Below, one piece after another: positions 3,825-43,230 of a stretch of 64,000 nt of DNA (position 1 is its first letter; each line of letters opens with the position of its first letter). The stretch lies in NCBI RefSeq assembly GCF_024171565.1, contig NZ_JALJZZ010000001.1, positions 744,001 through 808,000 of the forward strand. The letters are read 5' to 3'. A program made the translations under genes and the position numbers. The notes below the pieces were generated by a model, which saw only the letters and a program-made list of their open reading frames with translations, had not been told where the DNA came from and searched no databases. This stretch comes from Okibacterium sp. HSC-33S16 (GTDB lineage: Bacteria; Actinomycetota; Actinomycetes; Actinomycetales; Microbacteriaceae).

Positions 3825-5457
3825 AGAAGGTCGGCGTCGACACCGTGGGGAGGGAACGGGCGCCTTTCACCTGGGTGCCGAGCAGGAAGTGGTTCTGCTG
3901 GTCGTAAAGCGGGAGGATGTGGAAGCCCTCAAGAATGATCTTCTGTGCCTGCTCGTACAGGTCCGCCCGTTCGGCATCGTCGGAGATTTCGCTTGCACGG
4001 GTGAGCAGGTCGTCGAGTTGCGGATCGCTGACCTGGGACAGGTTCGCGAAGTAGCCGCTGGGGGCAGGCACGATTCCGTCGGAGTGGTAGAGGATACGGA
4101 GGACGTCCGGTCCGACCTTCGTGTACGGGGCGCTCACGAGGTCGTAGTCGTTCTCGGCCAGGACGCCGTACCAGCTGGACAGGTCGAGCAGGCTGAGCTG
4201 CACGTCGAATCCGGCTTGCTTTGCGGTGGCCTGGATCTGTTCGAACAGCGACTGCTCGGCCGGGATGGACTGGTTCGTCGAGACCGGGAAATCGAGGGTG
4301 AGGCGCTCGCCGTCTTTCACCCGGAAGCCATCGGCGTCCCGCGCGGTCCAGCCCGCTGTGTCGAGCAGGGCGTTGGCGGCGTCGAGGTCGGTGGTGAAGA
4401 GTGACTCGTCGGAGTAGCCGACTGACTCGGCACTCGACAGCGGTGAGTAGGAACGCTTGGCTGAGCCGAAGAAGAGCGACTCGATGCCGTCGTTCACATC
4501 GACGGCACGGATGAACGCTTCACGGACGGCGGGGTCGTTGAACGGAGCGGCACCAGCGTTGAGCTCGATGCGGTTCGATGCCCCTGGCCTCGGCGCGTCG
4601 ATGTGGGCCAGCGTTGTTGTCTTCTCAGCAGCGGCGATGGTGTCTGGCTGCGCGTTGTCGAGGATGTCGACCTGCCCAGCCTGCAGTGCAGCGTATCGCG
4701 ATGCTGAGTCGGGGATGAAGCGCCATTCGATTGCCTCGAGGTACGCCTTTCCGTCGTGTTGAGCGTCCGCGGGCGGCGAGTTGTAATCCTCATTGCGGAC
4801 GAGCGACACGTGGTCTTGCTTCACCCAGTCGTCGACCACGAATGGGCCGGTGCCGATGGGGGCCTGGCAGTTCTCTTCCATTCCACGGGCGATCCCGGCG
4901 GGGGATTCAATCGCGAGCCACGGCATGGAGAGTGACTCGAGCAAGGCGCTGTCCGGGGCGTTCAGCGTGAACTGCGCGACGGTATCTGAGATCGCCGTCA
5001 CTGACTCGACCTTCCCCAATGCGAGGTAACCGGTCGATGACTCGGTAGCCGGGTCTTTGAGGTGTTCGACGTTGACCTTGACGGCGTCCGCGTCGAACGG
5101 CGTGCCATCGGTGAAGCTGACGTCGTCCTTGAGCGTGAAGTCCCACGTGAGGCCGTCGTCCGACACTGACCATTTGGTGGCTAGCCACGGGATGATCTCG
5201 CCTTCAGAATTGCGAGAGACGAGCGAATCGAGGAATTGTCCAGCCAGAAGTGCCTGCGGGTAATTTCCACCAACGTGAGGGTCGAGGCAGGTCGGTTCGG
5301 CGTCACCGCTTGCGTAGGTGAGAGTGCCTCCGGCGACGGGAGTGGAGGAAGCGGATTCCGTTGCTGGTTGGCAGCCGGTGAGAAGGAGCGCGAGCCCACT
5401 CGCGGCAGCAATCGCGGTGAGAGCCCGGCGGGCGGGGCGACGAGAGGGTGAATGCAT
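3799..5457 (-). CDS. ABC transporter substrate-binding lipoprotein, family 5 (DppA/OppA-like)
   Basis: A 552-residue extracytoplasmic binding protein. The N-terminus has arginines (RRPARR), a hydrophobic stretch and a lipobox LLLTGC with Cys29, so it is probably lipid-anchored outside the membrane. The mature part has SBP_bac_5 features: GGTLTYASGDAEPTCLDPH near the start, then TKWSVSDDGLTWDFTLKDDV, which is the strand that precedes the usual F-x-D-G-T-P-F motif (present as FTDGTPF). It is the first gene of the minus-strand importer operon and determines its specificity, which could be peptides, nickel or another solute. The ATG at 5457 is preferred over a start 13 codons upstream because it places the signal sequence at the very N-terminus. 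Confidence 0.93.
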   Translation of the reverse strand: MHSPSRRPARRALTAIAAASGLALLLTGCQPATESASSTPVAGGTLTYASGDAEPTCLDPHVGGNYPQALLAGQFLDSLVSRNSEGEIIPWLATKWSVSDDGLTWDFTLKDDVSFTDGTPFDADAVKVNVEHLKDPATESSTGYLALGKVESVTAISDTVAQFTLNAPDSALLESLSMPWLAIESPAGIARGMEENCQAPIGTGPFVVDDWVKQDHVSLVRNEDYNSPPADAQHDGKAYLEAIEWRFIPDSASRYAALQAGQVDILDNAQPDTIAAAEKTTTLAHIDAPRPGASNRIELNAGAAPFNDPAVREAFIRAVDVNDGIESLFFGSAKRSYSPLSSAESVGYSDESLFTTDLDAANALLDTAGWTARDADGFRVKDGERLTLDFPVSTNQSIPAEQSLFEQIQATAKQAGFDVQLSLLDLSSWYGVLAENDYDLVSAPYTKVGPDVLRILYHSDGIVPAPSGYFANLSQVSDPQLDDLLTRASEISDDAERADLYEQAQKIILEGFHILPLYDQQNHFLLGTQVKGARSLPTVSTPTFYDTWLANN

Positions 5458-5490
5458 GACTGATCCTTGGAAACCCGGAGGGCGGAGGGC

Positions 5491-5535
5491 GTCCAAACCG
5501 AATTATTGGACGCGGTGTAATAACTACACTACAAC
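5491..5535. promoter_or_regulatory. Divergent dpp/tetR control region with two inverted repeats
   Basis: Between the importer operon (minus) and the tetR gene (plus) lie two dyads. The first is GTCCAA-N9-TTGGAC (5491-5511). The second is GTGTA-N5-TACAC (5515-5529). The right arm TTGGAC (5506-5511) is also a plausible -35 hexamer for tetR, with TACAAC at 5530-5535 as -10 (18-nt spacer). Dyads placed in a divergent promoter beside a TetR gene are the usual arrangement for TetR operators. That TetR binds here, and to which dyad, is inference. Confidence 0.5.
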
Positions 5536-5601
5536 GTCATTTCTTCCCGCTGTTCCCACGGTTCCGGCGGGGTCGATACGCTTTTCGAGAAAGGAGCGGT
5601 C

Positions 5602-6210
5602 ATGAATCACTCTCCGCAGGTCGGTCGTCCTCGTCGCTCCTCGCAGCGAATCCTTGAAGAATCGGCAGCAGAACTCTTCCTCGAGCAGACCTATGCCCGC
5701 ACCACCGTCGACCAAATCGCTCAACGGGCGGGCGTAAGCCGGAATACCTTCTTCAACTACTTCGGCTCGAAGTCCGACGTTCTGTGGGTGGACATCGATG
5801 AGACGCTGGAGCGATTGTCGCTGGAGTTGGCTGCGGCAAGCCCGTCCGTTCCGGTGATGGATGCCGTTCGAGACGCGGTAACCCGGGTGGCTGCGGCCCA
5901 TCCTGACGATCGAGTGCCGTGGGCCCTCACTCATGTGGACCTCATGGGCACGCGAGAGGAACTTGAGGCCTCGGGGCTCCGCCGGCTCATGAAGCAGAGC
6001 GATGTCTTGCGAGACTTCATCGGCCAGCGCGTCAGGTCGGCTGATAGCTCCCTTTCGCGGGCAGCTGCCTTCGCCACCCTGGCCGCCGCTGCGGCTGCCG
6101 CCGGGGCGTGGGTGAGCGCTGGCGTCGGGCGTCGCGCCCTCGCGGAATATGTAGCGGATGCCGTCGGGCCGGTGTGTGCGGGTTTTGCCGCGGTGATTGA
6201 GCCCGGTTAG
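5602..6210 (+). CDS. TetR/AcrR family transcriptional regulator
   Basis: A 202-residue regulator with a TetR_N helix-turn-helix at about residues 14-60; the recognition helix region reads AGVSRNTFFNYFGSKSDVLW, which is highly characteristic. The C-terminal ligand domain is variable and alanine-rich. It is divergent from the peptide-type importer operon, so local control of that operon (and itself) is the simplest hypothesis, supported by dyads in the shared intergenic space. The ATG at 5602 follows GAAAGGAGCGGTC, a good ribosome-binding site. It ends tail-to-tail with the next gene with a 4-nt overlap. The ligand is unknown. Confidence 0.92.
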   Translation: MNHSPQVGRPRRSSQRILEESAAELFLEQTYARTTVDQIAQRAGVSRNTFFNYFGSKSDVLWVDIDETLERLSLELAAASPSVPVMDAVRDAVTRVAAAHPDDRVPWALTHVDLMGTREELEASGLRRLMKQSDVLRDFIGQRVRSADSSLSRAAAFATLAAAAAAAGAWVSAGVGRRALAEYVADAVGPVCAGFAAVIEPG

Positions 6211-6938
6211 TCCAAGATATGCCGCAGGTAGCGCTGCGGCGTGTCCAAATAAGATCTCCAGTGCGTGACGAGATCGAGATCCTCCCACTCAGCTCGCTCA
6301 ATGCCCGTGTCGGATAGCTCGTAGATGGTCGCACCCGGAAGCGAAGCGAGCACAGGGGAGTGCGTTGCACACAGCACCTGCGATCCGTTGGCGACCAGGT
6401 CGGCGAACGAGCCGATGAGCGCCAGGGTGGAACTGAAGGAGAGGGCTGCTTCCGGTTCATCCAGGCAATAGAACCCCGGGCGGCTCAGGTAGGTCTCGAC
6501 GACGGCGAGGAACGATTCGCCATGGCTCATGCTGTGGAAATCAGCACCGCCCTGAAGTGAGTCCTGGAAGGTGTAGTAGCCGTGCATTGTTTCGGCTCGG
6601 AGAAAGAAGCCCCATCGGGGTGCCCCCGGACGCCGAGTGAGCCGAATCCAGTCGCCGAGCGGTGATTCTGTGGGGCGTGTTTCATGAGCGGAATGGATTG
6701 TTCCACCCTCGGGCCCCAGACCGTACGCGGCCGCCACTGCCTCAATCAGCGTCGATTTCCCACTTCCGTTTTCCCCGACGAGGAATGTCACGCCTGGTCC
6801 CAGTTCGAGCCCGGAGGAGAGAATCTGGTCGATGGCGGGGATTGACGCGGGCCATGTCCCCGCCGACACCGCCGCTTCCGGCTGACGGTGAATGTCGCGC
6901 ACCAGTCGCTGGTCGGCGAAGGGATCCTCGTTGCTCAT
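6207..6938 (-). CDS. AAA family ATPase (ABC/RecF-like, COG3910 type)
   Basis: A soluble ATPase of about 243 residues from the ATG at 6938; an ATG six codons upstream at 6956 is also possible. It has Walker A GENGSGKST, an ABC-like signature SHGESFLAVVE, and Walker B YCLDEPEAALS, followed by a switch-like CATHSPVLASLPGA. There is no coiled coil, nuclease or membrane part, so it resembles stand-alone RecF-like AAA ATPases rather than transporters. It is transcribed away from the GntR gene and ends tail-to-tail with tetR. Its role is not known; there is no obvious partner gene such as a TOPRIM nuclease or toxin next to it, so a defence role has no support here. Confidence 0.85.
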   Translation of the reverse strand: MSNEDPFADQRLVRDIHRQPEAAVSAGTWPASIPAIDQILSSGLELGPGVTFLVGENGSGKSTLIEAVAAAYGLGPEGGTIHSAHETRPTESPLGDWIRLTRRPGAPRWGFFLRAETMHGYYTFQDSLQGGADFHSMSHGESFLAVVETYLSRPGFYCLDEPEAALSFSSTLALIGSFADLVANGSQVLCATHSPVLASLPGATIYELSDTGIERAEWEDLDLVTHWRSYLDTPQRYLRHILD

Positions 6939-6971
6939 GCAGTCATTCTTCCGCACGTTGTCCTTGATGAC

Positions 6972-7000
6972 TTGTTCTATTGAAACTAGAACAATAGAAT
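6972..7000 (+). promoter_or_regulatory. Leaderless promoter with embedded GntR-type operator
   Basis: A perfect dyad TTGTTCTA-N7-TAGAACAA spans 6972-6994. Its left arm contains a -35-like TTGTTC (6972-6977); after 17 nt comes TAGAAT (6995-7000), a good -10. The GTG start of the GntR gene is at 7007, exactly where transcription should begin, so the mRNA would be leaderless. The overlap of operator and promoter suggests autorepression by the GntR protein. Positions are read directly; binding is inferred. Confidence 0.7.
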
Positions 7001-7006
7001 GAAACC

Positions 7007-7357
7007 GTGCTCCTCCGAATTGATCAATCCTCGACGACGCCGCTGTTCGACCAGCTCGCGTCGAGCATCCGTGGTGCCGCCATCACTGGCGGCGTGAAGC
7101 CGGGCGAACGACTGCCAGCCGCTCGTGACCTGGCCGAGTCGCTTGAGGTCAACGTGCACACCGTCCTGCGCGCATACCAGTTGCTTCGCGACGAAGGGCT
7201 TGTGGAACTGAGGAGGGGGAGAGGAGCGGTCGTCACCGACAGGGCCGAGCGTTACTCACAACTCAGCGCCGCCATCGACACGGTGGTCGTTGAGGCCCGC
7301 GCGCTGGGCATCGCGCCCGACACTGTGACCGCATTACTCCGAGAGGCCCTCAAATGA
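7007..7357 (+). CDS. GntR family transcriptional regulator, short YtrA-like type
   Basis: A 116-residue protein with an N-terminal winged helix (about residues 10-78), including SLEVNVHTVLRAYQLLRDEG and ELRRGRGAVV, which are typical GntR recognition-helix and wing sequences. It lacks the large effector-binding domain of FadR/HutC types; the remaining 40 residues form a short helical tail as in YtrA proteins, which usually control membrane transporters or membrane proteins encoded in their own operon. The GTG start lies 6 nt after a TAGAAT -10, indicating a leaderless message, with a dyad overlapping the promoter. It overlaps the next gene by ATGA, so the two are coupled. Confidence 0.93.
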   Translation: MLLRIDQSSTTPLFDQLASSIRGAAITGGVKPGERLPAARDLAESLEVNVHTVLRAYQLLRDEGLVELRRGRGAVVTDRAERYSQLSAAIDTVVVEARALGIAPDTVTALLREALK

Positions 7358-8358
7358 CCGAGACCCCCACCATCGTTGGCCAGAAGCGCCATCTCATCTT
7401 CGGCATCGTGATCCCCGTCCTGATCAGTGTGGTCGGGGCCATCGTCGCTATGACCTGGCTGCCCCAATTGCCCGACACTGTGGCGATCCACTGGAGCGAG
7501 GACGGAGCTGACGGGTACGGCAGCCCGTGGACGCTCATCCTCATCCCGCCGGTCATCACTGTGCTGTTCACGGTCGCCACGGAATATACCGTCCGGGCGG
7601 CCCGCCGTGCACGCGGAGCGACCAACAACGAGAAAATCCTCGTTGCCACACGCAGTTTCCTCAGTGTGATCCTCACCACCGGCACCGTCGGATCGCTCGC
7701 GGTTCAACGTGGTCTCGCTGACGCGGCTGACGCGCCGAACATCAGCGCGCCCATGATCATCGGCGCCATCGGTGGGCTCGTCCTTGCCGCTGTGGTCTGG
7801 TTCATCCTTCCCACCGCTGCCCCGCTCACCTTCGATGAGAAGCCCGAGGCCGAGCCTCTCGACATCGCACCATCCGAGCGCGTCTACTGGGCGCGGACCG
7901 TGCACATCTCCGGTGCCGTCGTGGCGCTGATTGCTGTCGCCCTCGCTGTGGCCATCGGCGCCGCAATCCTCACGATGGTGTCATCGTCGAACGGATCCTC
8001 TCTTGCCCTCGGCGTCGCGGTCTTCGTCGCGCTGGTCTCCATCGGGATGTCGTTCTGGCGGGTCCGCGCAGACCGCCGAGGTTTCGTCGTCCGTGGTGCG
8101 CTGGGCTGGCCGCGAGTCACCATACCCAATGCCGACATCGACCAGGTGCGAGTCGTGGACGTGAACCCGACCGCGGACTTCGGCGGGTGGGGGTGGCGCT
8201 GGGCACCCGGGCGTCGCACCGGGGTCATCATGCGCCGTGGCCCAGGAATCGAAGTCACCCGGCGTGATGGCCGACGACTCGTCGTGACGGTTGACGACGC
8301 CGAGACCGGTGCGAGCGTCGTCAAGACACTCATCGCTCGTAGCTCGGCGCGTCGCTGA
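7354..8358 (+). CDS. DUF1648 multi-pass membrane protein
   Basis: A 334-residue integral membrane protein. The first segment (about residues 15-35) leads into PQLPDTVAIHWSEDGADGYGSP, the DUF1648 signature, then further hydrophobic segments near residues 55-75, 92-110, 128-150, 183-210 and 215-235. A C-terminal cytoplasmic domain (about residues 240-334) contains RADRRGFVVRGALGWPRVTIP, which resembles a PH-like membrane-associated fold. Bacillus SdpI-type immunity proteins and YtrA-regulated membrane proteins include DUF1648 domains, but no toxin partner is present here. It shares an operon with the GntR regulator, which probably senses membrane conditions or an antibiotic; that is inference. 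Confidence 0.85.
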   Translation: MTETPTIVGQKRHLIFGIVIPVLISVVGAIVAMTWLPQLPDTVAIHWSEDGADGYGSPWTLILIPPVITVLFTVATEYTVRAARRARGATNNEKILVATRSFLSVILTTGTVGSLAVQRGLADAADAPNISAPMIIGAIGGLVLAAVVWFILPTAAPLTFDEKPEAEPLDIAPSERVYWARTVHISGAVVALIAVALAVAIGAAILTMVSSSNGSSLALGVAVFVALVSIGMSFWRVRADRRGFVVRGALGWPRVTIPNADIDQVRVVDVNPTADFGGWGWRWAPGRRTGVIMRRGPGIEVTRRDGRRLVVTVDDAETGASVVKTLIARSSARR

Positions 8359-35251: not shown

Positions 35252-35926
35252 TCAGTCGACGTCGATGGTGTTGGCGTCGCCATCGCCCGGTCGATTCATG
35301 TGCCGCTCCTGGGTGCGTTTGAGCACCACCTTCACCGCGTAAGCGATTGCCAAGAATGCCGCAATGATGCCCACGAAGATGTAGCCCGCGTAGTGCAGCT
35401 GGTCAGCGAGCTGCCGGTAGGTGCCAGCGGCTGCCGACCCAACCGAAACATACGTCACCGACCAGAGCACACAGGCCGGGATCGTCCAGCTGATGAATCG
35501 CCGATAGGACATCGTGCTCATTCCCACCGTGAGCGGGATGAGCGAGTGCAGCACCGGCAGGAACCGCGAGATGAACACGGCGATCCCTCCTCGCCGGTCG
35601 AGATAGTTCTCGGCGCGAACCCACTGGCGCGCGCCGATCTTCGAACCAAGTCGACTGGCTCGAATGCGAGGACCAAAGTACCTGCCCAGGGCGAAACCGA
35701 TACTCTCGCCGACAAGCGACCCGATGACCACGGCCGCGACCAGTCCGACGAACTGCGCCGGGCCCTCAACCGCTGTGCTCGCCACAATGACGACAGTGTC
35801 GCCCGGCACAATCAGTCCGACGAGCACGCTCGTCTCCAGCAGGATGGCAACCCCGGCCAGCAGTGTTCGAAGAACAGGATCGACGCTTTGTACGACGTCA
35901 AGCAGCCAGCTCAGGATCTCGTTCAC
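35252..35926 (-). CDS. DedA family membrane protein
   Basis: A 224-residue membrane protein of the DedA/SNARE-associated family. Signatures seen are ETSVLVGLIVPGDTVVIVAS (about 31-50), GSLVGESIGFALGRYFG, and FISRFLPVLHSLIPLTVGMSTMSYRRF, with the conserved re-entrant arginine and proline. Members act as phospholipid or undecaprenyl-phosphate flippases or influence the proton motive force. It lies 19 nt after the M56 protease gene and 48 nt before App1, so it belongs to the same presumed operon. A basic tail (KRTQERHMNRP) ends the protein. Confidence 0.93.
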   Translation of the reverse strand: MNEILSWLLDVVQSVDPVLRTLLAGVAILLETSVLVGLIVPGDTVVIVASTAVEGPAQFVGLVAAVVIGSLVGESIGFALGRYFGPRIRASRLGSKIGARQWVRAENYLDRRGGIAVFISRFLPVLHSLIPLTVGMSTMSYRRFISWTIPACVLWSVTYVSVGSAAAGTYRQLADQLHYAGYIFVGIIAAFLAIAYAVKVVLKRTQERHMNRPGDGDANTIDVD

Positions 35927-35945: not shown

Positions 35946-36887
35946 TTAGATGAGCACTAACAGCACGGTGGGAATGACCAGGAGAGCCGTTGCTGCACCG
36001 AGAACGGTTCCGCGAGCGCTGGACGAGAGCGGATGCTGTTGGGTCAGCAGGCGTGCCACCCGGGGCCCAACAAGGCCTGGCTCGATCTCACCGCGGTTCG
36101 CCCAGCTCAGTTCCGGAGCGGTGGGGTCGGTTGCCGCGCCGGAGCCGACCAGGGCGATGGCCGTCGCCAGCGTTCGATCATCGGTCGCCCGTCGCGCCTG
36201 ATCGTCGGCGAGCATCTCCACGAGCAGCGCAACCGCGTTTTCCGCACGGTTCGCGATCGGGAACCACGGCAGGGCGCTGTGCCAGGACTTGAACGCAATA
36301 AGCACGAGATGATGCTGCTGGGCGAGGTGCGCGTTCTCGTGCGCGATCACCGCCCGAAGCTGGGACTCATCCAACAGCGCGACGAGGCCCTCGGACAGGA
36401 CGGTCACCGAGCTGGATGTCCCCGGGAGGCAGTAGGCAACGGGGGAGGGATGGTCGAGCACCCGGGTACGGGGACTGCCCTCGAGCGGAGCGCTCAGCAG
36501 GTTGACCAGTGAGAGGTGTCGGCTGCGTTGCTTCTCGCTCCGTACGAGCGTAAGGAGAAGGCTGAGCAGCAAGTGGCCGGTGAGAAGAACAGCCAGGCAC
36601 AGCGCAAACATCTGCGTGAAATTGGCACCGGGAGGCAATGTTCCGGCGAACAGATGTGAGGTGAACTCGAAGGCGCCGGCGATGAGATTGTTTCCGAACG
36701 GGATGAGTCCGTAGGTGACGAGGGACCCGATCATCGACAGTCCACCAGCCAGGGCGATGGACTGCCAGAGTACGAGTGCGGTTCCTGGCGCTCGGGATGG
36801 CCAGGCTGCGCGCGCGAGGACCAAGGGAACCGGCCAGGCGAGAGTCAGTGCAAGCAGGGCAAGCACGACGGAAGCGGCGAACATCAC
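35946..36887 (-). CDS. M56 family membrane metalloprotease (BlaR1/MecR1-like protease domain)
   Basis: A 313-residue membrane zinc protease. The active site is HENAH (183-187) with the third ligand Glu224 in VEMLADDQA (Glu-x3-Asp). Hydrophobic segments flank it: about 4-25, 37-60, 92-115 and 293-312. It has no C-terminal penicillin-binding sensor domain, unlike BlaR1, so it senses something else or responds through another protein. It sits 16 nt after the BlaI-type repressor gene; in this family the protease triggers removal of its partner repressor. Two ATG codons at 36887 and 36884 are equivalent starts. Confidence 0.92.
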   Translation of the reverse strand: MMFAASVVLALLALTLAWPVPLVLARAAWPSRAPGTALVLWQSIALAGGLSMIGSLVTYGLIPFGNNLIAGAFEFTSHLFAGTLPPGANFTQMFALCLAVLLTGHLLLSLLLTLVRSEKQRSRHLSLVNLLSAPLEGSPRTRVLDHPSPVAYCLPGTSSSVTVLSEGLVALLDESQLRAVIAHENAHLAQQHHLVLIAFKSWHSALPWFPIANRAENAVALLVEMLADDQARRATDDRTLATAIALVGSGAATDPTAPELSWANRGEIEPGLVGPRVARLLTQQHPLSSSARGTVLGAATALLVIPTVLLVLI

Positions 36888-36903: not shown

Positions 36904-37272
36904 TTACGAGTTGTGTGCGCCGCTCAGCAAGGTGCGCAGGGTTTCCGCCTCTTCCGGGCTGACCTGGCCGATGAAGCGCGCAAGTGCAGCTTCACGGTCG
37001 GGCGCGGTTCCCAGTACCTCGTGCATGAGGTCGGCCGTGTGTTCGGCGCGCGTGGTGACCGAGCGGTAAAGGTGAGGTCGGCTTGAGCGGTCGCGCTCGA
37101 CGAAGCCCTTGTTCTCGAGCCGGGAGAGCACGGTCAGCACCGTGGTGACGGCAACCTCTTTCGATCCACGACTCGAATCCAGGCGGTCACGAAGCTCATT
37201 TGCACTGAGGGTACCCTCTGTGCTCCAAAGCGCATCCATGACCGATCGTTCGAGCTCACCCAGTGTTGCCAT
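36904..37272 (-). CDS. BlaI/MecI/CopY family transcriptional repressor
   Basis: A 122-residue winged-helix repressor. The N-terminal domain reads LGELERSVMDALWSTEGTLS, then EVAVTTVLTVLSRLENKGFV, the recognition helix and following turn, and YRSVTTRAEHTADLM, which is the linker to the dimerisation helices. Family members bind TACA/TGTA-type dyads and are inactivated by an M56 protease, here encoded just downstream. Its divergent neighbour is cydA, and three copies of TTCTAC-N5-GTAGAA fill the space between them, so it probably represses itself and the cytochrome bd operon. Confidence 0.94.
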   Translation of the reverse strand: MATLGELERSVMDALWSTEGTLSANELRDRLDSSRGSKEVAVTTVLTVLSRLENKGFVERDRSSRPHLYRSVTTRAEHTADLMHEVLGTAPDREAALARFIGQVSPEEAETLRTLLSGAHNS

Positions 37273-37302
37273 GCGTTAAGGATACGGCCAGTTCCACGAA
37301 AG

Positions 37303-37319
37303 TTCTACGCTTGGTAGAA
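37303..37319. promoter_or_regulatory. BlaI-type operator candidate, box 1
   Basis: TTCTAC-GCTTG-GTAGAA: perfect 6-bp arms around a 5-nt spacer, 31 nt upstream of the blaI start. It is the copy nearest blaI and probably serves autorepression. Confidence 0.7.
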
Positions 37320-37324
37320 ATTAG

Positions 37325-37341
37325 TTCTACATCGTGTAGAA
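37325..37341. promoter_or_regulatory. BlaI-type operator candidate, box 2
   Basis: TTCTACA-TCG-TGTAGAA: 7-bp arms with the TACA/TGTA core typical of BlaI sites. It lies 22 nt, about two helical turns, centre to centre from box 1. TTCTAC here could also act as a -35 for TAGGCT (37349-37354) toward cydA. Confidence 0.72.
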
Positions 37342-37365
37342 GTTGGTCTAGGCTCGAAGCGAAAC

Positions 37366-37388
37366 GTTTTCTACGCGGCGTAGAAAAC
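37366..37388. promoter_or_regulatory. BlaI-type operator candidate, box 3
   Basis: GTTTTCTACG-CGG-CGTAGAAAAC is a perfect 23-bp dyad with 10-bp arms. Its core TTCTAC-N5-GTAGAA is the same as boxes 1 and 2. It lies just before the cydA ribosome-binding site GGAGGG (37394-37399), so a bound repressor would block the cyd operon. Confidence 0.75.
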
Positions 37389-37402
37389 TTTGTGGAGGGA
37401 AT

Positions 37403-38815
37403 GTGAACGACCTGCTCGACCCGCTGCTGCTTTCTCGTTGGCAGTTCGGACTCACGACGATTTACCACTTCCTGTTCGTGCCTCTCACGATTGGCATGGC
37501 GCTCACCGTTGCGATCTTCCAGACGGCGTGGGTGAAAACAGGTAAGGCGCACTACCTGCAGCTCGTTCACTTCTTCGGCAAGATTTTCCTCATTAACTTC
37601 GCAATGGGTGTCGTCACCGGGATCGTGCAGGAGTTCCAGTTCGGAATGAACTGGTCTGATTACTCGCGGTTCGTCGGTGACGTGTTTGGCGCCCCACTGG
37701 CGTTCGAGGGCCTGCTCGCCTTCTTTCTGGAGGCAACCTTCATCGGGCTGTGGATCTTCGGTTGGGACAAGCTGCCAGCGAAGCTCCACCTCGCGACCAT
37801 CTGGATCGTCGCAACCGCAAGCATCCTCTCGGCATATTTCATCATCGCGGCGAACGCGTTCATGCAAAATCCTGTGGCATTCACCATCAACGAGGAGAAG
37901 GGCAGGGCGGAGCTCACCAGTATTTGGGAACTGCTCACCAACCCCGTTGCACTCGCGGCCTTCCCCCACACGATTTTCGCCTGCTTCATGGTCTCGGCCG
38001 GACTCATCATCACGGTGGCCGCCTGGCATTTGTCACGGAACCAGCACCTCGACACGATGCGACCTGCGTTGAAGTTCGGTCTGTGGGCCATGCTCGTTTC
38101 CGGTGGCCTCACGACGATCGCCGGCGACCAGCTGAGCCTTGCGATGGTGGCGACTCAGCCCATGAAGATGGCTGCTGCTGAAGCCATGTACGAAACGTCC
38201 ACCGGTGCGGACGCGTCATTCTCGATCTTTACCCTCGGCACGCCAGACGGAGTGCACGAACTCTTCTCGATCCGGATTCCGTATCTCCTGTCTTTCTTGT
38301 CGACACACACGTTCAACGGAACGGTCGAGGGAATCAACAACCTCCAGGAGCAGTACCAGACGCTCTACGGCCCCGGAGACTACGCGCCGATCATCTGGGT
38401 CACCTACTGGTCATTCCGCTGGATGATCGGCATGGGGCTCGTTCACATCCTCGTCGCTGTCGTTGGCCTGTGGCTCACCCGCAAGGGCAAGCTGCCCACC
38501 AACACGTGGGTGTGGAAGGCCGCAATATGGTCGTTCCCGCTCTCGCTCGGCGCGATGATCGTCGGCTGGGTGTTCACCGAAATGGGGCGTCAGCCGTGGC
38601 TGGTCTTCGGTTTGCTTGAAACCGCCGATGGGGTCTCACCCGGCGTGACGGGCATCGAAGTGCTGATCTCGCTCGTCGTCTTCACTGTGCTGTACGGCTC
38701 ACTCGCTGTCGTCGAGTTTCGCCTCATCAAGAAGGCGGCCCAGACCGGCCCGGCGGAGCTCAGCGAACCCGACGAGGAAACCGGCAAGCCTCTCGTCCAC
38801 ACCACCGTCTACTAG
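37403..38815 (+). CDS. cydA: Cytochrome bd ubiquinol/menaquinol oxidase subunit I
   Basis: A 470-residue membrane subunit of the high-affinity terminal oxidase, with nine predicted helices. His22 (TTIYHFLFVPLTIG) is a heme b ligand, and the GRQPWLVFG motif and NFAMGVVTGIVQEFQFG segment are family hallmarks. The Q-loop is short (the form common in Gram-positives), consistent with menaquinol as donor. GTG at 37403 follows GGAGGG. It is the first gene of cydABDC, downstream of three BlaI-type dyads. The oxidase supports respiration at low oxygen and under stress such as nitric oxide or inhibition of the bc1-aa3 branch. Confidence 0.97.
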   Translation: MNDLLDPLLLSRWQFGLTTIYHFLFVPLTIGMALTVAIFQTAWVKTGKAHYLQLVHFFGKIFLINFAMGVVTGIVQEFQFGMNWSDYSRFVGDVFGAPLAFEGLLAFFLEATFIGLWIFGWDKLPAKLHLATIWIVATASILSAYFIIAANAFMQNPVAFTINEEKGRAELTSIWELLTNPVALAAFPHTIFACFMVSAGLIITVAAWHLSRNQHLDTMRPALKFGLWAMLVSGGLTTIAGDQLSLAMVATQPMKMAAAEAMYETSTGADASFSIFTLGTPDGVHELFSIRIPYLLSFLSTHTFNGTVEGINNLQEQYQTLYGPGDYAPIIWVTYWSFRWMIGMGLVHILVAVVGLWLTRKGKLPTNTWVWKAAIWSFPLSLGAMIVGWVFTEMGRQPWLVFGLLETADGVSPGVTGIEVLISLVVFTVLYGSLAVVEFRLIKKAAQTGPAELSEPDEETGKPLVHTTVY

Positions 38816-38824
38816 GAGGACACC

Positions 38825-39868
38825 ATGGATCTCACAGTTCTCTGGTTCGGCATCATTGCCTTCCTGTTCATCGGATACTTCGTTCTCGACGGCTTCGACT
38901 TCGGCGTCGGTATGGCCATGCCGTTCGTCTCCAAGGACGACACCGACCGCCGAGTGGTCATCAACACGATCGGCCCGGTCTGGGACCTCAACGAGACCTG
39001 GCTGATTGTCGCCGGAGCGTCGCTCTTCGCGGCGTTCCCCGAGTGGTACGCCACCCTGTTCAGCGGCTTCTACCTGCCGCTCCTGCTCATACTCGTTGCT
39101 CTCATTCTGCGTGGAGTGTCGTTTGAGTACCGGCACCAGCGCTCCGAACGCCAGTGGAAGCAGCGCTTCGACCGGATGATCGTTGTTGGTTCTGCCGTTC
39201 CAGCTTTGCTCTGGGGTGTCACATTCGCGAACATCGTTCGGGGTGTCCCGCTCAACGCAGCACACGACTACACCGGCACGTTTTTTGAGTTGCTGAACCC
39301 GTTCGCCCTGCTCGGCGGCCTGACCACGCTGCTGCTGTTCTTCACGCACGGCGCCCTGTTCCTCGTGCTGAAGACCGACGGCGAGATCCACGCCCGGGCA
39401 CGTACGGTGGCTTTCCGTGCCGGACTCATCACGGTCGTCGTTGCGGCCGTCTTCCTGGCCTGGACCGTTCTGGCCTACGGCACCCTTCCCGCATTCGCCC
39501 TCGCGGTCGGCGCGGCCGTGACCCTCATCGCCTCGGTGATGGCGAACCTGCGCCGCAAGGAAGGCGCCGCGTTCACCCTCATGGCCATCACGATCGGACT
39601 TGCGGTGCTCACGCTCTTCGCCGCGCTGTTCCCGGCCGTCATGCCCGCGAGCAACGACCCGACTCACAGTTTGACGATCGAGAACGCTTCGTCGAGTCCG
39701 TACACCCTGCAGGTGATGAGTTGGACGGCCCTGGTCGCCCTGCCGCTCATCCTCGCCTACCAGGCGTGGACGTACTGGATCTTCCGCAAGCGCGTCACCC
39801 GCTCGCACATCGAGAGCCAGGGCGCCGCTGACTCGGGCTCCGAGGCGACTGTCGAAGCGGCGCACTAA
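38825..39868 (+). CDS. cydB: Cytochrome bd oxidase subunit II
   Basis: A 347-residue membrane subunit that pairs with CydA. The N-terminus LWFGIIAFLFIGYFVLDGFDFG, followed by GPVWDLNETWLIVAGASLFAAFPEWY, is unmistakable for CydB. About eight hydrophobic helices are visible. It starts 9 nt after cydA with AGGAGGACACC before the ATG, and is 3 nt ahead of cydD, so all four genes form one unit. Confidence 0.97.
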   Translation: MDLTVLWFGIIAFLFIGYFVLDGFDFGVGMAMPFVSKDDTDRRVVINTIGPVWDLNETWLIVAGASLFAAFPEWYATLFSGFYLPLLLILVALILRGVSFEYRHQRSERQWKQRFDRMIVVGSAVPALLWGVTFANIVRGVPLNAAHDYTGTFFELLNPFALLGGLTTLLLFFTHGALFLVLKTDGEIHARARTVAFRAGLITVVVAAVFLAWTVLAYGTLPAFALAVGAAVTLIASVMANLRRKEGAAFTLMAITIGLAVLTLFAALFPAVMPASNDPTHSLTIENASSSPYTLQVMSWTALVALPLILAYQAWTYWIFRKRVTRSHIESQGAADSGSEATVEAAH

Positions 39869-39871
39869 CCT

Positions 39872-41527
39872 GTGAACGTGAGACCCCTCGACCCCCGACT
39901 CCTGCGTTACGCGGTCAGCGCCCGGTGGTTCCTGGCCACCGGCGCCGTCCTGGGAGTCGCCACCACCGCGAGTATCCTCGCCTTCGCGTGGCTGATCACG
40001 AAGTGCATCACCGGAGCGATCGAGGGGCAGAGCCTCGGCGACTTGCTCCCGTTCATCGGCATGCTGGCCGCCGTCGCGCTGCTGCGGGCTCTGCTCGTCT
40101 ACGCTCAAGACCTCGTCGCCGCTCGCGGCGCGGCCAGGGTCAAGAGCGAGCTCAGGCTGGGCGTCCTGGATGCTGTGCGCCGCCTGGGCCCAGCGTTCCT
40201 CGCCGAGAAGAACAGTGCCCGTGTTGCGACGTTGCTCGGACGAGGCATGGACGCTCTCGACGACTACTTCTCCAAGTACCTCCCGCAGCTGATTCTCACG
40301 GTTATCGTCACACCGATCGTCGTGCTCGTCGTGTTGCTGTCTGACTGGCTCTCCGCCGTCTTCATCCTTGTCACCCTTCCACTCATCCCGATCTTCATGA
40401 TCCTCATCGGCTGGGCCACGCAAGCCGTCCAGCGACGTCAGTGGACGGTGCTCGGCGACCTCTCGTCCGGCTTTGTCGACACACTCGGTGGCCTCGCAAC
40501 CCTCAAAATTTTTGGGCGTGAATCCCGACAGGTTAAGCGGATGCGATCAATCACCACCTTCTATCGCATCGAAACGATGCGCGTTCTGCGTGTGTCCTTT
40601 CTCTCCAGCTTCGCGCTCGAACTGGCCGCAAGCCTGTCAGTTGCACTCGTCGCCGTGTCGATCGGACTGCGACTGGTTGACGGTTCGCTCGGCCTGACCG
40701 TGGGACTCTTCGTCCTGCTGCTCGCGCCGGAGGCATTCCTGCCCCTGCGTCAGGTCGGCGCCAACTTCCACGCGGCAGCCGAGGGCGTCGCCGCTGCCGA
40801 GGACGCTTTCACCATCCTCGACGACGCGCGGTCACTTCCCGCCGTCGAGAGTCAGACAGCGACCGACGCGCGGGGTGTATCGGCCGGTGTGCTCTCGGTT
40901 GACCACGTCACGGTGGACTACGGAGCAGGAGCCGTTGCGGCGCCCGTCACCGCCGAATTCCGTCCGCATGAACTCACCGTCATCGCCGGGCCCAGCGGGA
41001 CCGGTAAGTCGAGCCTGCTTGCGGCGATCCTCGGATTCGCCCCGTTCTCCGGTTCCGTGCGATTCGCGAACCGCCCCGTCCCGTGTTCGGCCGACGAGCG
41101 AGGCTGGCTTGCCTGGACCGGGCAGCGCCCGTCTCTCAGCGTCGGGACGGTGTCAGAAAACGTCGCGCTCGGCTCGGACGCTGTCGACCACGGCCTCGTT
41201 CGTCGTGCCCTCGACCTCGCGGCAGCGCCCGAGATCGATCCCGACCTCGCGGTCGGCGTCGCCGGTGCAGGACTTTCGGGAGGCCAGGCGCAACGCGTCG
41301 CTCTCGCTCGCGCGATCTACCGAACCCTTGACCGCCGCTCGGCCGTTCTGCTGCTTGATGAACCGACGTCAGCTCTTGACCACGGCACCGAGGCCCGCCT
41401 TCTCGACGGACTGAGAATCGTTGCCGAATCCGGAGTCGCTGTCATCGTCGTAAGCCACCGGCAGGCCGTCATCAACCGGGCCGACGCCCTCGTCTCGCTC
41501 TCATCTCGAACGGTGGTGGCCGCATGA
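39872..41527 (+). CDS. cydD: Cytochrome bd assembly ABC exporter subunit CydD
   Basis: A 551-residue half-transporter: six-helix ABC membrane domain (about 1-310), then a nucleotide-binding domain with Walker A GPSGTGKSS (about 373), signature LSGGQAQR (about 468) and Walker B VLLLDEPTSALD. CydDC is required for bd oxidase assembly; it was described as a thiol exporter and more recently linked to heme handling. GTG at 39872, four codons of MNVR, then the hydrophobic start; a second GTG two codons on is also possible. It overlaps cydC by ATGA, matching the heterodimer. Confidence 0.95.
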   Translation: MNVRPLDPRLLRYAVSARWFLATGAVLGVATTASILAFAWLITKCITGAIEGQSLGDLLPFIGMLAAVALLRALLVYAQDLVAARGAARVKSELRLGVLDAVRRLGPAFLAEKNSARVATLLGRGMDALDDYFSKYLPQLILTVIVTPIVVLVVLLSDWLSAVFILVTLPLIPIFMILIGWATQAVQRRQWTVLGDLSSGFVDTLGGLATLKIFGRESRQVKRMRSITTFYRIETMRVLRVSFLSSFALELAASLSVALVAVSIGLRLVDGSLGLTVGLFVLLLAPEAFLPLRQVGANFHAAAEGVAAAEDAFTILDDARSLPAVESQTATDARGVSAGVLSVDHVTVDYGAGAVAAPVTAEFRPHELTVIAGPSGTGKSSLLAAILGFAPFSGSVRFANRPVPCSADERGWLAWTGQRPSLSVGTVSENVALGSDAVDHGLVRRALDLAAAPEIDPDLAVGVAGAGLSGGQAQRVALARAIYRTLDRRSAVLLLDEPTSALDHGTEARLLDGLRIVAESGVAVIVVSHRQAVINRADALVSLSSRTVVAA

Positions 41528-43230
41528 GCGCCGACCAGAGTGTCCGTCGCGACGTACGTTCGATCCTCCGCACCGCACTGCCCGTCACGCCGGGTGGAGC
41601 ACTCGGCGTGCTCTTCGGCATTTTCGCCGCTCTCTGCACCGTTGCCCTGCTCGCAACAAGCGCCTACCTCATCACCCGTGCCGCGGAACAACCGCCGATT
41701 CTCTACCTGTCCATGGCCGTCGTCGGCGTGCGCGCGTTTGCCCTCGGGCGTGCTTTCTTCCGGTACCTGGAGCGACTGGCCAGCCACGACGCCGCATTCC
41801 GGCAGTTGGAATCGGTGAGGGTCGATCTGCTCCGCCGGCTCATCCCGCTTGCCCCGGACGGTCTCGGACGGTCACGTCGCGGTTCGTTGCTCTCGTCCCT
41901 GGTCTCCGACGTTGACGAACTCCAGAACCTTCCGTTGCGTGTGGTGCAGCCTCTCATGACGTCCCTCGGTGTGGCCGCCATCGCCGTCTGGGTGGTCGCG
42001 CTCCTGTCACCGACCGCTGCTGTCGGTCTTGCCATTGCCCTCGTCGCAGCCTTCCTTGGTGGAACGGTTATCGCCGCCCGGCTGGCCGCGTCAGCGGAAC
42101 GGGCGATAGCACCGCGCCGGGCCGCGCTCCTCGATGCCGTCCTTGACTACCTGAGCAATCTCGATGTCCTGATCGCCTACGGCGCCGAGAAGGCCGGAAG
42201 ACGCCGGGTCGAAGCAGCGGACATTGCCCTCACCCGCGCGCTGACGGCTCGCTCTGCCGGCGTCGGAATCGCGGCTGGCGCCCTGTCGCTGTTCTCCGGG
42301 CTGGCGGTCGCCTGGTCGCTGGTCGCGGGCATTCCCGCGCTCGGAACCGGAGACGGCCACCTCACCGGCCCCGGTCTCGCCGTGATCGTCCTGATTCCGC
42401 TCGCCGTCTTCGAGATCGTGGCCAGCGTCCCGCTCGCGGCAAGCGCCTGGCGTCAGGTGCGCTCGAGTGCGGAGCGGATCGCCCGCGTTGCACCCGCCGA
42501 CGTTCCGCGCGAACTTCCCATCGGTGGCGGGACGGCGGCGATCCTGCCGGTCACCGCGGCGCCGGTTCTTCAGCTTTCCCAGGTGGCGGCGACATGGCCG
42601 GGGGCGAGTGAGCCGTCGCTCATCATCGAGAACCTCCGCGTCGACGCTGGCGAGCGGATTCTCATTGAGGGAATGAGCGGAGCGGGCAAAACGACCCTCG
42701 CCCACATTCTGGTGCGGTTCCTCGAGTTCGATGGCGAGTACCTGTTGGCCGGGCAGAACGTTCGCGATCTTCCTCTCGACCAGGTGCGCCGCGTCGTTGG
42801 GCTCTGCGAACAGGTGCCGTACCTGTTCGATGAAAGCATCCGACAGAACCTGCTGTTCGCGCGCGACACAGCGACAGACGTTGAGCTCACCGCCGTCCTC
42901 GACCGGGTCGGCCTCGGGGAATGGGTGAGAGAACGCGGCGGCCTCGACGCACGGGTGGGGGAGCGGGGCGCCCTCGTCTCGGGCGGGCAAGCCCAGCGCA
43001 TCGCCCTGGCCAGGGCACTGCTGCGGGATTTCCCGGTCATCGTGCTGGATGAGCCCACTGCCAACGTCGAGACCGACCTCGCCGGGCGGCTCATGGCCGA
43101 CCTGCTGGACGCGACGAGCGAGGATGGCCGCACCGTCCTGGTGATCTCGCATGCCGATATCGCTGACGCGCTGGTCGACCGTCGTATTCGCATCAGCGAT
43201 GGAGTACTCGAAAACTCGGCAGCGCTCTGA
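41524..43230 (+). CDS. cydC: Cytochrome bd assembly ABC exporter subunit CydC
   Basis: A 568-residue half-transporter and partner of CydD. The membrane domain (about 20-330) begins LGVLFGIFAALCTVALLATSAYLI; ARAFALGR-type CydC features include FALGRAFFRYLERLASHD. The nucleotide-binding domain has Walker A GMSGAGKTT (about 384), signature VSGGQAQRIALARALL and Walker B VIVLDEPTANVE. It is the last gene of cydABDC; 29 nt separate it from a TetR gene with its own possible promoter. Confidence 0.95.
   Translation: MSADQSVRRDVRSILRTALPVTPGGALGVLFGIFAALCTVALLATSAYLITRAAEQPPILYLSMAVVGVRAFALGRAFFRYLERLASHDAAFRQLESVRVDLLRRLIPLAPDGLGRSRRGSLLSSLVSDVDELQNLPLRVVQPLMTSLGVAAIAVWVVALLSPTAAVGLAIALVAAFLGGTVIAARLAASAERAIAPRRAALLDAVLDYLSNLDVLIAYGAEKAGRRRVEAADIALTRALTARSAGVGIAAGALSLFSGLAVAWSLVAGIPALGTGDGHLTGPGLAVIVLIPLAVFEIVASVPLAASAWRQVRSSAERIARVAPADVPRELPIGGGTAAILPVTAAPVLQLSQVAATWPGASEPSLIIENLRVDAGERILIEGMSGAGKTTLAHILVRFLEFDGEYLLAGQNVRDLPLDQVRRVVGLCEQVPYLFDESIRQNLLFARDTATDVELTAVLDRVGLGEWVRERGGLDARVGERGALVSGGQAQRIALARALLRDFPVIVLDEPTANVETDLAGRLMADLLDATSEDGRTVLVISHADIADALVDRRIRISDGVLENSAAL

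Follow-up and report, generated by a model that had tools for sequence, protein, structure and literature searches.

A BlaI-type repressor and a BlaR1-like protease without a sensor domain as a probable switch for cytochrome bd in Okibacterium and related actinobacteria

Introduction

Regulators of the BlaI type are usually annotated as beta-lactamase repressors. In Mycobacterium tuberculosis, BlaI also acts on the ATP synthase operon, according to the accessible parts of two reports (PMC12565901, PMC5874750). The available sections of a further paper describe a mycobacterial BlaR without an extracellular sensor domain, state, citing Sala 2009, that BlaI binds the cytochrome bd promoter in M. 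tuberculosis, and propose that electron transport and the beta-lactam response are linked in a loop (PMC5473688), while the accessible text of PMC4757040 names Rv1846c sites without giving their letters. The palindromic core of the copper repressor CopY is TACA-N2-TGTA, and TACA/TGTA is given for BlaI and MecI in the same excerpt (PMC7253601). Here, we describe a stretch of 64,000 nucleotides from Okibacterium sp. HSC-33S16 (contig NZ_JALJZZ010000001.1, positions 744,001 to 808,000; hereafter the window), in which blaI and the gene of a BlaR1-like membrane protease (together blaI-M56) stand back to back with cydABDC, and in which three copies of the palindrome TTCTAC-N5-GTAGAA lie between blaI and cydA. 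Rex represses cyd genes in actinobacteria. The N-terminal domain of Rex (PF06971) had no match above cut-off in any of the six genomes of the genus, three of which, including that of the window, gave a weak match below it.

The comparison of relatives supports a regulatory reading of these boxes well, and the arrangement is probably an autoregulated BlaI-M56 switch for cytochrome bd. Action of BlaI on respiration is already in print, and the conserved unit with its operator and regulon is apparently new: neither the blaI-M56/cyd unit, nor its operator, nor a respiratory regulon was found in the literature searched, in which subscription journals were mostly not included. The abstract of Sala 2009 reportedly does not list cyd.

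Predicted operators between blaI and cydA

A preliminary description of this DNA had reported three copies of TTCTAC-N5-GTAGAA, and a pattern scan of the window found exactly these: box 1 (TTCTACGCTTGGTAGAA) at 37303-37319, box 2 (TTCTACATCGTGTAGAA) at 37325-37341 and the core of box 3 at 37369-37385, with start-to-start distances of 22 bp between boxes 1 and 2 and 44 bp between boxes 2 and 3 (no strand is assigned to any of the three). The 3.23-Mb genome has no exact match besides these three. With up to two mismatches allowed, the window contains six matches against a mean of 0.36 in shuffled sequence, and none of 100 shuffles reached six. The 23-bp dyad claimed for box 3 is indeed perfect, spanning 37366-37388 with arms of 11 bases (GTTTTCTACGC-G-GCGTAGAAAAC); a terminator-like match at 37388-37366 was rejected, since it is box 3 itself. 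Likewise, the TACA/TGTA core ascribed to box 2 is present, in the form TACA-N3-TGTA (TACATCGTGTA); boxes 1 and 3 carry TACG in the left half and hence do not have it.

Promoters are named here by position and conservation only, and a consensus sigma-70 scan of 37200-37460 found no promoter, including the two proposed. For blaI, the putative -10 element is TATCCT at 37279-37284 on the minus strand, that is, TAnnnT at -12 to -7 of the start codon. The same motif occupies this offset in 38 of 67 usable orthologues, compared with 1.1% at other offsets, and blaI is therefore probably leaderless in those orthologues. Box 1 reaches from -31 to -47 of the blaI start codon and so would cover the -35 region, while in another group of orthologues, where the box begins at position 8, it would cover the -10 element. 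Both sequence and conservation thus place a palindromic candidate operator at blaI's own promoter. On the cydA side, the left arm of box 2 (37325-37330) lies at the expected -35, with an 18-bp spacer to the putative -10 element TAGGCT (37349-37354, plus strand; TAnnCT in the four genus genomes shown), and box 3 follows just downstream of the presumed transcription start. Such a geometry would suit repression.

Conservation of the unit in the family

A sample of 199 genomes of the family was searched for BlaI, the exact box pattern and CydA, which gave matches in 111, 85 and 153 genomes, respectively; all 114 BlaI places were fetched. BlaI proteins at least 50% identical to that of the window occur in 76 genomes, and in 74 of these blaI-M56 and cydA diverge, the protease gene lying beyond blaI (the exceptions are G159 and G097). 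Loss of the boxes in relatives that keep the gene order had been named beforehand as grounds for abandoning the proposal, and all 74 gaps hold boxes: 72 with the N5 spacer and at most one mismatch, and two with N6. An exact N5 site is missing from six of the 74 genomes. The N6 cases, G134 (L152) and G187 (L138), each have three boxes with the 6-base spacer, as though the spacing of all operator copies could change together. Outside the blaI-cydA gap, the 74 fetched loci contain no site even with one mismatch allowed.

Most distances between boxes fall into the ranges 20-26, 41-45 and 55-56 bp; four are 17 bp and one is 122 bp, and so most boxes could share one face of the helix. The cydA genes of the linked loci are of two kinds, 76-100% and 41-46% identical to that of the window. 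Two kinds behind one regulator suggest that the regulator stayed with cyd through an exchange of the oxidase.

Linkage of the boxes to BlaI

Exact sites are present in 68 of the 74 genomes with blaI-cyd linkage and in 17 of the other 125. They fall to two (G005 and G061) among the 88 genomes without any BlaI match, and both of these are outside the 153 genomes in which cydA was found. In five cydA regions that have no blaI, drawn from genomes with high-scoring cydA, nothing came closer than three mismatches. Conversely, among 38 BlaI loci that lack cydA, 18 carry a box with no more than one mismatch at a distance of up to 160 bp from blaI. In G135 and G072, cydA has three and two exact boxes, respectively, with no blaI there; the sole BlaI found in these genomes is encoded elsewhere, is only distantly related (39% identical) and has a one-mismatch site of its own. 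Together, these counts tie the predicted operators to BlaI, and the cydA boxes without a local blaI indicate that they serve cydA as well. The comparison across relatives thereby favours the earlier proposal that the boxes are placed to control both blaI-M56 and cydABDC.

Beyond the family

Among 37 named actinobacterial BlaI loci, which overlap with the family sample, cydA lies beside blaI in 35 and an exact box is present in all 37; the genera represented include Leifsonia, Cryobacterium, Arthrobacter, Salinibacterium, Subtercola, Geodermatophilus, Modestobacter and Blastococcus. Seven BlaI loci from other phyla have neither a cydA neighbour nor an exact box. Across the class, 82 of 296 genomes have a BlaI match at E 1e-20, at 87 places, 77 of them outside the family. 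Of the 40 outside places examined, 23 have a divergent cydA; two more divergent cases were seen besides, and at L347 cydA lies on the other side. In one other family cydA is of a third kind, with about 30% identity; in 10 of the 11 loci of this sort it stands at a distance of 660-860 bp. All 11 have a one-mismatch box at blaI, and L317 and L332 have exact boxes on the cydA side, as far as the scan reached (600 bp past blaI).

In nine linked loci outside the family and in G006, the closest boxes read TACTAC- or TACGAC-N5-GTAGTA, a reading made post hoc. The presumed recognition helix is AVTTVLTVLSRL with TTCTAC boxes and AYTTVMTVLDRL with the variant boxes. The exact TACTAC form is found only beside blaI-cydA, in five of the 10 genomes of this kind, and thus no wider regulon of this variant was seen in these 10 genomes.

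Further sites and the predicted regulon

The 74 linked genomes contain 42 exact sites outside the cyd gap, which were located and fetched as 40 loci. Pfam was applied to representative loci, and other members of a group were matched by tblastn or read by eye; most genes beside the extra sites were read by eye rather than profiled. An argument that these sites exceed chance by number was dropped, as a reversed-pattern control was about as frequent; comparison with BlaI-free genomes was therefore used instead. According to a simple gene finder, all 42 lie between genes, 41 of them no more than 300 bp from a predicted start.

Genes of respiration or energy metabolism follow the site at 23 of the 40 loci: the flavohemoglobin gene hmp (6), pta (6), ctaC (4), the atpB operon (3), a pair of genes of which the last encodes a multicopper oxidase (2), moaB (1) and a detached cydDC fusion (1). 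In three of its six loci pta comes second, after a gene identified in L287 as DUF1254/DUF1214, and a narG-like gene lies 1.4 kb from moaB. The detached fusion (L295 of G106, 4001-7408) is a gene of 1116 amino acids with two ABC (ATP-binding cassette) transporter units, read as cydD-cydC, which stands away from cydAB and has its own exact box 40 bp upstream. The search of relatives proposed earlier thus found boxes in front of blaI and cydA as well as elsewhere, mainly at these respiratory or energy loci. Some targets recur across genera, hmp in three and pta, atp and cta in two each. The other 17 loci comprise three with adenosine deaminase, two with inorganic pyrophosphatase, two with a helix-turn-helix gene and ten others, among them L246, where the site lies between convergent genes. 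The adenosine deaminase sites (L270, L271, L272) are exact, 8 bp before the gene and from three genomes of one genus; they have no respiratory explanation.

The genome of the window has three further sites with one mismatch. One precedes a DUF308 protein (L005/L279); another stands before three genes, phosphatase-like (as judged by eye), thioredoxin-like and DsbD_TM/CcdA-like in this order (L006/L280); the third is L004. The first two sites are kept with one mismatch in all six genus genomes, their central bases varying. In G002, a member of the genus, the thioredoxin-like cytochrome c maturation gene exists in four copies (L355, L359, L360, L361), of which only L360 has a one-mismatch box in the fetched stretch. 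Separately, small genomes that have only the distant BlaI carry exact sites before PCuAC-like copper chaperone genes (L281-L283, L297, L298; by Pfam in L297 only), and the genes across the site in L281-L283 look, by eye, like an nrdH/nrdI/nrdE group.

Proteins of the unit

The blaI gene (36904-37272, minus strand) encodes 122 amino acids without cysteine and matches PF03965 (Penicillinase_R) with 77.7 bits against a cut-off of 22.6; NCBIfam profiles yielded no BlaI equivalog for it. Its closest named relative is BlaI of Mycetocola zhadangensis, at 88%. On the other side, cydA (37403-38815; PF01654), cydB (38825-39868; PF02322, TIGR00203 above cut-off), cydD (39872-41527; TIGR02857 above cut-off) and cydC (41524-43230; TIGR02868 above cut-off) follow one another on the plus strand, and a TetR gene lies after cydC.

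The protease (35946-36887, minus strand; 313 amino acids) has an HExxH motif, HENAH at 183-187, and four hydrophobic stretches that would form membrane helices around the protease domain; H183, E184, H187 and E224 are invariant in alignments of 74 and of 31 rows. Since its Pfam match is M48 instead of M56, a fold comparison was made, in which the predicted model aligned best to BlaR1. The chain ends with its last helix at residue 313 and has no C-terminal penicillin-binding sensor domain, and hence is not a BlaR1 penicillin receptor. The M56 protease partner described earlier is thus supported in part, as a protein that resembles a membrane zinc protease of the BlaR1 type. Cys153, in an AYC motif 30 residues before HENAH, is invariant in the aligned orthologues; a role in zinc binding or redox chemistry is possible.

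The gene after the protease (35252-35926) is of the DedA/VTT-domain type and adjoins the blaI-M56-cyd group in several named relatives too. Matches of its product to models of undecaprenyl-phosphate transporters are well below the cut-offs. In L273 and L274, which have no blaI-M56, the DedA/VTT gene directly faces cydA across the boxes.

A proposed switch and its signal

A dimer of the BlaI-family protein would bind TTCTAC-N5-GTAGAA. At box 1, BlaI over the blaI -35 would repress its own leaderless blaI-protease operon; at box 2, over the cydA -35, and at box 3, past the start, it would keep cytochrome bd and CydDC off for as long as it is intact. A membrane event would switch on the BlaR1-like protease, BlaI would be inactivated, and cyd and blaI-protease would both come on. 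In the genome of the window, BlaI would probably also control the DUF308 membrane protein and the cytochrome c maturation operon. The signal would most likely be impaired electron flow or energisation. We give this full model, in which BlaI represses its own operon and cyd, the protease relieves repression, the signal is respiratory and there are extra targets, a probability of about 0.7.

The preliminary description had the protease act rather than redox or oxygen sensors, with signals at the membrane or cell wall setting the respiratory branch. This part is not borne out: a respiratory signal fits better because the protease has no penicillin-binding domain and many sites precede respiratory genes, those for ATP synthase, cytochrome oxidase, flavohemoglobin, pta and cytochrome c maturation. 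The regulon, as read from sequence, points to respiration and not to the cell wall. Given the DedA-type neighbour, the signal might also come from the envelope. More tentatively, and with somewhat less than even odds, the pair of BlaI and a sensor-less BlaR-like protease could be a dedicated gauge of the respiratory chain throughout the Actinomycetes, with beta-lactam control as a side branch. From within the membrane, such a gauge would sense how electrons flow or how far the membrane is energised, and would jointly set cytochrome bd, cytochrome c maturation, ATP synthase, heme-copper oxidase, nitric oxide detoxification and acetate overflow.

Alternative explanations

It is conceivable, though unlikely, that the same BlaI switch operates with a protease that reports cell-wall damage or beta-lactams as BlaR1 does, the oxidase being changed in response. 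The family offers a precedent, the sensor-less BlaR of M. tuberculosis is said to act in the beta-lactam response in the part of PMC5473688 available, and the DedA/VTT gene, with its sub-cut-off matches to undecaprenyl-phosphate transporter models, lies after the protease gene and, in L273 and L274, opposite cydA. However, a penicillin-binding domain is absent from the protease, and among the genes beside the extra sites, most of them read by eye, none was recognised as a beta-lactamase or peptidoglycan gene, whereas respiratory or energy genes stand at 23 of 40 loci.

Rather less probable is copper status as the signal, sensed by way of oxidases that require copper or of a protease region that binds it, such that low copper would call up the copper-free cytochrome bd. 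CopY is a relative of BlaI (PMC7253601, in part), a copper-short sigC mutant of M. tuberculosis had higher cyd and ATP synthase transcripts according to the accessible part of PMC7924339, and Cys153 of the protease is invariant. Sites in some genomes precede ctaC, the multicopper-oxidase group, PCuAC genes or a DUF5134 gene beside genes that look, by eye, like copper-resistance genes. Against this, hmp, pta and atp do not fit copper alone. The window BlaI was also rejected as a CopY/TcrY protein, as it scores 29.7 bits with TIGR02698 (CopY), far below the cut-off of 121.95, and none of 71 BlaI orthologues has a CxC motif.

That another regulator binds the boxes, such as the product of the TetR gene after cydC, is very improbable: binding by BlaI is itself a prediction, but the boxes track BlaI whether or not cyd is present and hardly occur where BlaI is missing. 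Equally far-fetched is a role in blaI autoregulation only, with cydA as a passive neighbour in the region that the divergent genes share, given box 3 at cydA, the boxes before cydA in L273 and L274 without blaI there, and the box of the detached cydDC in L295.

Comparison with known systems

The switch proposed here would tie one branch of BlaI, in several actinomycete families, to terminal oxidases by linkage and predicted regulon, and the way in which actinobacteria sense a failing respiratory chain could be put to the test on it. With a well-defined operator and a helix sequence to match, targets could also be predicted in other species. Among described systems, the CopY/CopR copper repressors are related and have a palindromic TACA..TGTA operator (PMC7253601, in part), whereas the spacer here is one base longer. 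The BlaI-BlaR1 and MecI-MecR1 systems of Staphylococcus aureus combine the same repressor family with a membrane zinc protease, and the MecI structure 1sd6 is a weak sequence match to the window BlaI; here, in contrast, the penicillin-binding sensor domain is missing, the core is TAC-N5-GTA and the predicted targets are respiratory. The nearest solved structure by sequence is 2g9w (E 9.5e-16), which we take to be Rv1846c, the BlaI of M. tuberculosis. That BlaI and its BlaR (Rv1845c) resemble the pair described here in that BlaR is also sensor-less and BlaI is tied to respiration, and a respiratory branch of BlaI would fit the reported action on ATP synthase. The locus described here differs in that blaI is back to back with cydABDC, the predicted operator is TTCTAC-N5-GTAGAA and the helix reads VAVTTVLTVLSRL rather than LAYTTVMAVLQRL.
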